The translations under genes and the position numbers were made by a program. From the NCBI GenBank assembly GCA_002909145.1, contig PNQY01000179.1, forward strand, positions 34,939 to 89,119: a stretch of 54,181 nt of DNA, given 5' to 3'. Position 1 is the first letter of the stretch. Each line of letters opens with the position of its first letter. The DNA is from Candidatus Thioglobus perditus. Its GTDB lineage: Bacteria > Pseudomonadota > Gammaproteobacteria > PS1 > Pseudothioglobaceae. The notes under the pieces are model-generated. The model was given only the letters and a program-made list of their open reading frames with translations. It did not search any database and had not been told where the DNA came from. Shown piece after piece: positions 41,462 through 42,933 of the stretch.

Positions 41462-41920
41462 TTATTTTTCATATTGGCTCTTAACTTGCCTCAAGATACT
41501 TTTCATATCCTCCTGCCAACGAAATATAGTCAAACTATCTTCACCACTATCAACCAAAGGTAATAATGTTATTGGCGGTGTAGCAATAATCAATGTATGC
41601 TTACCCTCTTCCATTACTGTAATTTTTAATGGAAAAAATACAGCAAGCCCAGGATACTTTTTGCTCATTGATTTCATCTCATCATATTTACCAAAGAAAA
41701 GAATTCGGTACTTGTCAGTTTTGTAATGACGCTCATTTAGAGCAAAATCACAACGCTGCAGATATGCTGGCTTGTAGTTATGAGCTTTAATGGTTTTATC
41801 TAGTGCTAACCAAGTATAAGAAAATTTTGTATTTACACGCTCAATTAACAACTCATTGTGATTAGAAAATACTGAAGTTGATAGTAATATCGCAAATAGC
41901 ACTAAAATCCTTGCTACCAT
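41462..41920 (-). CDS. Secreted DUF302 protein
   Basis: 152-aa protein with a signal peptide (MVARILVLFAILLSTSVFS). The mature part is one DUF302 domain: FSYTWLALDKTIKAHNYKPAYLQRCDFA, YRILFFGKYDEMKSM, LAVFFPLKITVMEEGKHTLIIATPP. A single cysteine (in LQRCDF) could be a ligand or dimer contact. The function of DUF302 is unknown, but such genes are often found near sulfur-oxidation and cytochrome genes in thiotrophs (established association, not proof). It overlaps the cytochrome c-DUF302 gene by 7 bp, so the two are co-translated and may form a complex. Confidence 0.85.
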   Translation of the reverse strand: MVARILVLFAILLSTSVFSNHNELLIERVNTKFSYTWLALDKTIKAHNYKPAYLQRCDFALNERHYKTDKYRILFFGKYDEMKSMSKKYPGLAVFFPLKITVMEEGKHTLIIATPPITLLPLVDSGEDSLTIFRWQEDMKSILRQVKSQYEK

Positions 41921-42933
41921 AATACCTCCTCAATCATCTCTTGCATCTTCTGAATTAATTCATCAGCTGACTCATTCATCTGATCATTATTAAAGCGTCT
42001 TAATGCATGCTTATAGTTTTCAATAATTATGCTAACCTCACCTTCGTCATTTTCTACAACAGTAGCTCTACACGGCAGCATAACTCCAAGTCTTGGATCG
42101 ATCTTTAAAAACTCTTGCATATTTTTAAAATTACAAAAACGCACCACAATTTGCTTATTGTCTTCAATATTAGGCTCACCCAATCCTTCAAATAAAGTTC
42201 TATTTGGATAAACTCTAAAATTATATGCTGCAGCTGATTCACGCAATTTACTAACAGTTGCATCTAAATCATGTGGACTTTTGTAAATAAAAACAAGCGG
42301 CTCATCTATAGTATCTTCCCCAGAATTAAATTCTTTCTGGTGTGAACGAATATACGCAACTAAGTCATTTGTCATTTGATCGGTAAAATTAAACTCTTTA
42401 GCAAAAGATATCATTTCAGTATCTTCAATGCCGTTAATAATGATGTGCTTAATCATTTGGTCGCTAGCAGCGTATAAAAATCCTTGATTAGATAATGATG
42501 GAGGGGAAACTTCTCTATCTTTTTGCCAAGAAAAGTTTTTACCAGTACCCTGACCGCCTTCTAAATTATCGCCATGACATCTTTTACAATACTGCTCATA
42601 GGTATATTGTCCAGCACCAATATCACCTTTAATAAGGGCTGTATCATATTTTGGAGCTTTAACTCCAGCACGTAGAAATCTAATTAATTTAGCCACCTGA
42701 GCATCAGATAAATTAAACCCTGGCATAACTCTGCCCGGCCTACCATTTCTTATTGTTCTTTGTAGGTACCTATCAGAATGATTAGCAATAGTTGAACGAT
42801 ACAATGGCAATCCTAAAGATCCTTGACGAGAAAAGCCATGACATTTTTCACAGTTTTCACTATAGATTTCTCTGCCACCTGCAAAACTAATAAGAGGAAT
42901 TATCGTCAAGATTAGTAAAAACTTGTATTTCAT
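41914..42933 (-). CDS. Diheme cytochrome c fused to a DUF302 domain
   Basis: 339-aa periplasmic protein. The signal peptide is residues 1-18. The first cytochrome c domain has CEKCH (28-32) and a likely axial Met70 in RVMPGF. The second has CKRCH (116-120) and a likely Met174. The C-terminal 120 residues form a DUF302 domain (SPHDLDATVSKLRESAAAYNF, KQIVVRFCNF, LGVMLPCRATVVENDEGEV) with two cysteines (267, 288). This is a paralogue of the downstream stand-alone DUF302 gene. The fusion suggests electron transfer to or from whatever DUF302 binds. Haem attachment would need the Ccm system encoded 3-5 kb away. Confidence 0.88.
   Translation of the reverse strand: MKYKFLLILTIIPLISFAGGREIYSENCEKCHGFSRQGSLGLPLYRSTIANHSDRYLQRTIRNGRPGRVMPGFNLSDAQVAKLIRFLRAGVKAPKYDTALIKGDIGAGQYTYEQYCKRCHGDNLEGGQGTGKNFSWQKDREVSPPSLSNQGFLYAASDQMIKHIIINGIEDTEMISFAKEFNFTDQMTNDLVAYIRSHQKEFNSGEDTIDEPLVFIYKSPHDLDATVSKLRESAAAYNFRVYPNRTLFEGLGEPNIEDNKQIVVRFCNFKNMQEFLKIDPRLGVMLPCRATVVENDEGEVSIIIENYKHALRRFNNDQMNESADELIQKMQEMIEEVLW

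Follow-up and report, generated by a model that had tools for sequence, protein, structure and literature searches.

DUF302 is a widespread domain for which we know of no assigned function. Its solved members, the TT1751-like proteins 1j3m, 1q9u and 7tj1, are single-domain proteins with no haem domains. They share two conserved cysteines, in the motifs FCN and LPC, that are not a requirement of the Pfam definition (PF03625). Among periplasmic haem c proteins, the thiosulfate dehydrogenase TsdA and SoxAX couple the chemistry of sulfur-bound cysteines to electron transfer. According to a report on Acidithiobacillia, a single DUF302 gene lies between soxA and soxB in a cluster without soxCD; it encodes a presumed periplasmic protein of 191 aa, and the authors propose a role in trithionate oxidation (PMC5037610). 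Other papers report a DUF302 gene within sox clusters that lack soxCD (PMC5248467), DUF302 genes among the sox clusters of Sulfitobacter (PMC11034169) and a co-occurrence of DUF302 in Acidithiobacillia (PMC10512742). The open-access literature yielded no characterised homologue of the pair described below and no biochemical evidence for DUF302, and the passages on DUF302 examined there contained no description of a diheme-DUF302 fusion or of such a pairing.

Architecture of the fusion and its partner

The pair is a new variant within two known families, cytochrome c and DUF302. It lies on the reverse strand of a 54,181-nucleotide stretch of the Candidatus Thioglobus perditus genome, which we call the window. 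The first gene (41914..42933, minus strand) was recognized from its open reading frame and Pfam matches as a secreted cytochrome c–cytochrome c–DUF302 fusion of 339 aa. The second (41462..41920, minus strand), recognized by the same means together with profile comparison, encodes a secreted, divergent DUF302 protein of 152 aa. Start of partner and stop of fusion share the 7 bp ATGGTAG (41914..41920, minus strand), and both proteins appear, as read from the sequence, to start with a Sec signal peptide. Both frames and their 7-bp overlap are just as the first-pass annotation describes. Its account of the fusion as a secreted protein with two CxxCH sites, two plausible methionine ligands and a C-terminal DUF302 domain is likewise borne out by the reading frame, by Pfam and by the conservation of both methionines.

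Pfam finds Cytochrome_CBB3 (4.9e-24) and Cytochrom_C (1.3e-15) in two stretches each of the fusion, followed by DUF302 (6.9e-8). The class I c-type cytochrome pattern of CxxCH plus a distal methionine occurs twice and is conserved, so far as putative haem binding can be judged from motifs. The first site is CEKCH (residues 28-32; 42838..42852, minus strand), with Met70 (42724..42726, minus strand) as probable axial ligand; the second is CKRCH (residues 116-120; 42574..42588, minus strand), with Met174 (42412..42414, minus strand) as its probable ligand. Each of the two methionines is present in 65/65 fusions. The closest solved relative of this part is CcoP (3mk7 chain C; E 3e-9, 39 bits, residues 20-128), which likewise carries two c-type domains in tandem. 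However, the fusion has no adjoining ccoNO, a signal peptide takes the place of the membrane part of CcoP, and the C-terminus is DUF302; it also fails the NCBIfam ccoP model (TIGR00782; 43.3 bits against a cut-off of 180). It differs from TsdA and SoxAX in having DUF302 and in haems that look His/Met ligated, with no cysteine ligand identified.

The C-terminus of the fusion passes the DUF302 gathering cut-off (32.7 bits against 23) and so belongs to the same Pfam domain as the solved proteins. A profile search returned 1q9u (6e-10) and 1j3m (7e-7). The best Foldseek matches were 7tj1, 1q9u and 1j3m, that to 1q9u having E 1.8e-6 and TM 0.85 (target-normalised) from a model with mean pLDDT 47; the single-chain models of the two proteins are of low confidence, with mean pLDDT 47 and 42. 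The partner passes the same cut-off only marginally (23.5 bits against 23, E 5.3e-5). This weak match is real, since profiles built from 31 partners and from the DUF302 domains of 31 fusions match each other (98.6% in hhalign, E 7e-16) and the partner family profile matches 1q9u (E 2e-4). What sets the pair apart from the solved DUF302 proteins is secretion, the attachment of two haem domains, and an unequal partner, in whose family the FCN and LPC cysteines are both replaced. The fusion of the window is 66-74% identical to those of other Thioglobaceae, and dN/dS is 0.06-0.18 for the fusion and up to 0.25 for the partner, with dS often near saturation. This identity, the low dN/dS and the recurrence of the stop/start overlap place the two reading frames beyond chance.

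Distribution and fixity of the pair

We searched 370 Gammaproteobacteria drawn evenly from the class, 366 of them outside the family of the window, and called a fusion wherever a strong match to its DUF302 domain fell inside a frame of about 340-550 aa. Outside the family, 59/366 genomes carry the fusion, and these calls stand well apart from ordinary DUF302 matches. The pairing is thus not a peculiarity of this genome: the partner follows the fusion immediately on its 3' side in all 58/58 loci inspected, spread over 29 other families, as well as in the Thioglobaceae copies. In each of these 58 loci the frame that encodes DUF302 carries CxxCH motifs ahead of it; there are two apiece, the second being disturbed in L108. 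Stop and start overlap in 66/67 loci, by 4 bp in 56, 7 bp in 7 and 1 bp in 3; the remaining locus has a 19-bp gap.

Within the window's own family, the partner occurs in 16/83 genomes and 4/11 genera. Several copies in genus g5 are interrupted by stop codons or missing; Ca. Ruthturnera belongs to this genus, and its loci L012 and L020 are identical. The small g5 genomes G035, G036, G038, G040 and G041 carry partners with several stops and form an erosion series. A sample of 377 genomes of the phylum showed the fusion only in the window's genome and in G632, both within the class, and none outside Gammaproteobacteria. A plasmid collection gave CcoP-like and simple DUF302 matches only.

The DUF302 pair also exists unfused. 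Six genomes that hold the haem-fused pair also encode a membrane-anchored DUF302 protein followed by a mostly lipoprotein-like one, with a 4-bp overlap (L123, L124, L126-L129). The unequal DUF302 pair is therefore a module of its own, occurring with and without haem domains.

Sulfur-oxidation genes and the three cysteines

Sulfur oxidation was scored by soxB (E below 1e-100) and dsrA (E below 1e-50), with presence lists compiled by hand. The fusion and its partner are strongly tied to sulfur oxidation in Gammaproteobacteria. soxB is present in 54/59 fusion genomes and 98/307 others (OR 23, p 2e-18), dsrA in 48/59 and 71/307 (OR 14.5, p 3e-17), and one or the other in 55/59 and 110/307 (Fisher p about 1e-17), statistics to be read with the knowledge that the genomes are not independent and that 29 families contribute. 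The fusion is found in 47/106 genomes with both genes, 7/46 with soxB alone, 1/13 with dsrA alone and 4/201 with neither. The pair is thus not mainly a feature of organisms lacking sulfur metabolism, but the opposite; together with the pairing across families, this supports the earlier suggestion that the fusion joins DUF302 to sulfur or redox electron transfer. The window's genome itself has soxB, dsrA and soxYZ, and soxC was not found in it.

Among soxB genomes without dsrA, soxC scores above its cut-off in 0/7 with the fusion as against 23/39 without it (hypergeometric p about 0.005). For genomes with dsrA, the absence of soxC was rejected as an independent predictor; they rarely have soxC either way (3/59 of those lacking the fusion).

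The pair is not a member of the Sox core, as it lies near soxYZ in 4 loci only and many soxB genomes do without it. Two Thioglobaceae genomes, G039 and G056, have soxB and dsrA and lack the pair, and it decays in other members of the family. It is therefore an accessory, dispensable for sulfur oxidation, and not a core enzyme. This accessory distribution and the loss in reduced symbionts would also suit a periplasmic sensor of redox state or sulfide that works through thiols, with haems that report the state of the cysteines and no part as an enzyme of energy metabolism. A response regulator gene stands just upstream of one pair (L102), but no signalling partner is conserved among 67 loci, and we consider a sensor very unlikely.

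Two cysteines of the fusion, Cys267 (FCNF; 42133..42135, minus strand) and Cys288 (LPCR; 42070..42072, minus strand), are the canonical DUF302 pair and align with the conserved cysteines of 1q9u and 1j3m. Both are kept in every fusion except those of genus g186 (family f83) and family f91. A third cysteine occurs in one of two places. It is Cys323, in the last helix of the fusion, in 63 cases (11 of them with C288F) and Cys57 of the partner in 23, the window included, some of these loci being duplicates of one genome. The window has Cys57 (41750..41752, minus strand) and Ala323, whereas most other lineages have Cys323. The third cysteine is never on both subunits, and outside g186 it is on one or the other in every complete pair. 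On the tree, the swap between subunits, the loss of the full triad and C288F are each a single event, and the swap node is fully supported. This suggests, rather than proves, that Cys267, Cys288 and the third cysteine make up one shared site across the subunit interface. The occurrence of the third cysteine on either subunit, together with the synteny, supports a putative fixed complex of the two proteins, as the overlap had suggested in the first-pass annotation.

In g186, all three cysteines are gone from every fusion seen, while the haem motifs, the methionine ligands and the partner are retained; soxB or dsrA is found in 0/8 genomes. Its sister genus g475 has soxB in 3/3 and dsrA in 2/3 genomes, and its fusion retains all three cysteines. 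The rule is not absolute. Members of family f91 have C288F, yet soxB and dsrA are present in members, so that Cys288 is not essential everywhere. A simpler rule, by which loss of soxB and dsrA always goes with loss of Cys288, held in 4/4 cases at first and was abandoned when the relatives of G376 in f91 proved to have both genes with C288F. G376 itself shows only short soxB fragments in an assembly of 410 contigs, which is probably incomplete.

Candidate function and gene neighbourhood

The constant pairing, the link to sulfur oxidisers and the loss of the triad in the lineage without sulfur-oxidation genes together point to a pair that probably draws its electrons from sulfur compounds beyond the inner membrane. 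Our leading explanation, which we hold tentatively and expect to fail slightly sooner than to stand, is a sulfur-compound (thiol or sulfane sulfur):cytochrome c oxidoreductase, a periplasmic heterodimer that supplements truncated Sox/Dsr sulfur oxidation. The two unequal DUF302 folds would form the heterodimer, and Cys267, Cys288 and a third cysteine from either subunit would form the site reacting with reduced sulfur. That site could act on sulfane sulfur, on a persulfide or polysulfide, or on a protein that carries sulfur, for example SoxY or a rhodanese. From there the electrons would pass through both His/Met haems into the pool of periplasmic cytochromes and on to a terminal oxidase. A narrower form of this explanation assigns the pair to Sox/Dsr bacteria without SoxCD, with the interface site of three cysteines binding and oxidising sulfane sulfur, possibly on SoxY or rhodanese, and feeding two haems c; at that level of detail we regard it as doubtful.

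The haem fusion, the invariable partner, the sulfur link and the triad loss turn DUF302 into a defined redox hypothesis. If true, it would give truncated Sox/Dsr sulfur oxidation an accessory outlet for electrons and DUF302 a first function, and it would fill part of the gap concerning sulfane-sulfur electrons in the absence of SoxCD.

Several observations argue for a sulfur oxidoreductase. The absence of soxC in all seven fusion genomes that have soxB without dsrA is one, and the occurrence of DUF302 in the Acidithiobacillia sox cluster without soxCD (PMC5037610) and in Sulfitobacter sox clusters (PMC11034169) is another. The Acidithiobacillia gene likewise encodes a DUF302 protein of sulfur oxidisers; neither haem domains nor a second DUF302 are described for it. 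The neighbourhood adds soxYZ upstream of the pair in two families, 1-2 kb away in L088, L093 and L105 (family f41, three genomes) and in L099 (f91), with a SoxX-like haem protein accompanying soxYZ in L088. It also adds a secreted rhodanese of two domains, which immediately precedes the pair in five species of Thioglobaceae (L007, L008, L011, L013 and L022), for example at 4978-5907 of L007 and 4987-5916 of L011, and is absent from the window. Against the same explanation stand the C288F lineages of f91 with their soxB and dsrA, the fact that the cysteine changes are each single tree events, the relatives G039 and G056 that have soxB and dsrA but not the pair, the low confidence of the structure models, and the absence of an adjoining sulfur gene at most loci, the window's copy among them.

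A molybdoenzyme operon also counts against it. In the related genomes G083 and G333 (L100 and L125), the pair lies between NapG-like and NapH-like genes. The molybdoenzyme there is NapA/formate-dehydrogenase-like, far below the NapA cut-off, with HemN nearby. Such a position would suit a pure electron shuttle between periplasmic donors and oxidases or reductases, in which the DUF302 pair serves only as a docking or dimerisation module, and g186, with its haem motifs and methionine ligands intact after the loss of three cysteines, fits that picture as well. But docking alone leaves unexplained three conserved cysteines, one of them moved between subunits, and also the unfused DUF302 pairs without haem. 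We judge a pure shuttle improbable.

The joint loss of three cysteines would fit a metal site as well as it fits the redox relay of the sulfur oxidoreductase. The triad could then be a metal or cofactor site, for instance for handling copper or haem in the periplasm, the pair would assemble or protect c-type cytochromes or the cbb3 oxidase, and the sulfur link would be indirect, through respiration. The cytochrome part most resembles CcoP of the cbb3 oxidase, the Thioglobaceae copies have ccm genes nearby, hemN comes after a few other copies, and a DUF302 gene adjoins ccoG in Bradyrhizobium (PMC6515984). Cytochrome maturation (ccm) and cbb3 oxidases, however, generally reach far beyond the range of the pair, most of whose carriers are sulfur oxidisers, and in g186 the triad is lost where sulfur genes are missing while the haem domains remain. 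We hold a metal or cofactor site to be unlikely.

Beyond these cases, the neighbourhood is not constant. An operon with a fixed functional neighbour was rejected, the 67 loci differing in their neighbours and showing no third constant gene. They include adenylate cyclase in 15, soxYZ in 4 and HemN directly downstream in 3, and the Thioglobaceae copies have fabI and a peptidyl-prolyl isomerase. No relic of the rhodanese was found in the window by tblastn. In the Bathymodiolus heckerae symbiont (L013), the rhodanese is frameshifted and the cytochrome gene is also split. The window's genome has five DUF302 matches, namely the fusion, the partner and three others. One of the three (L004, C16), with a signal-like N-terminus, adjoins soxYZ and a cytochrome with seven CxxCH motifs.
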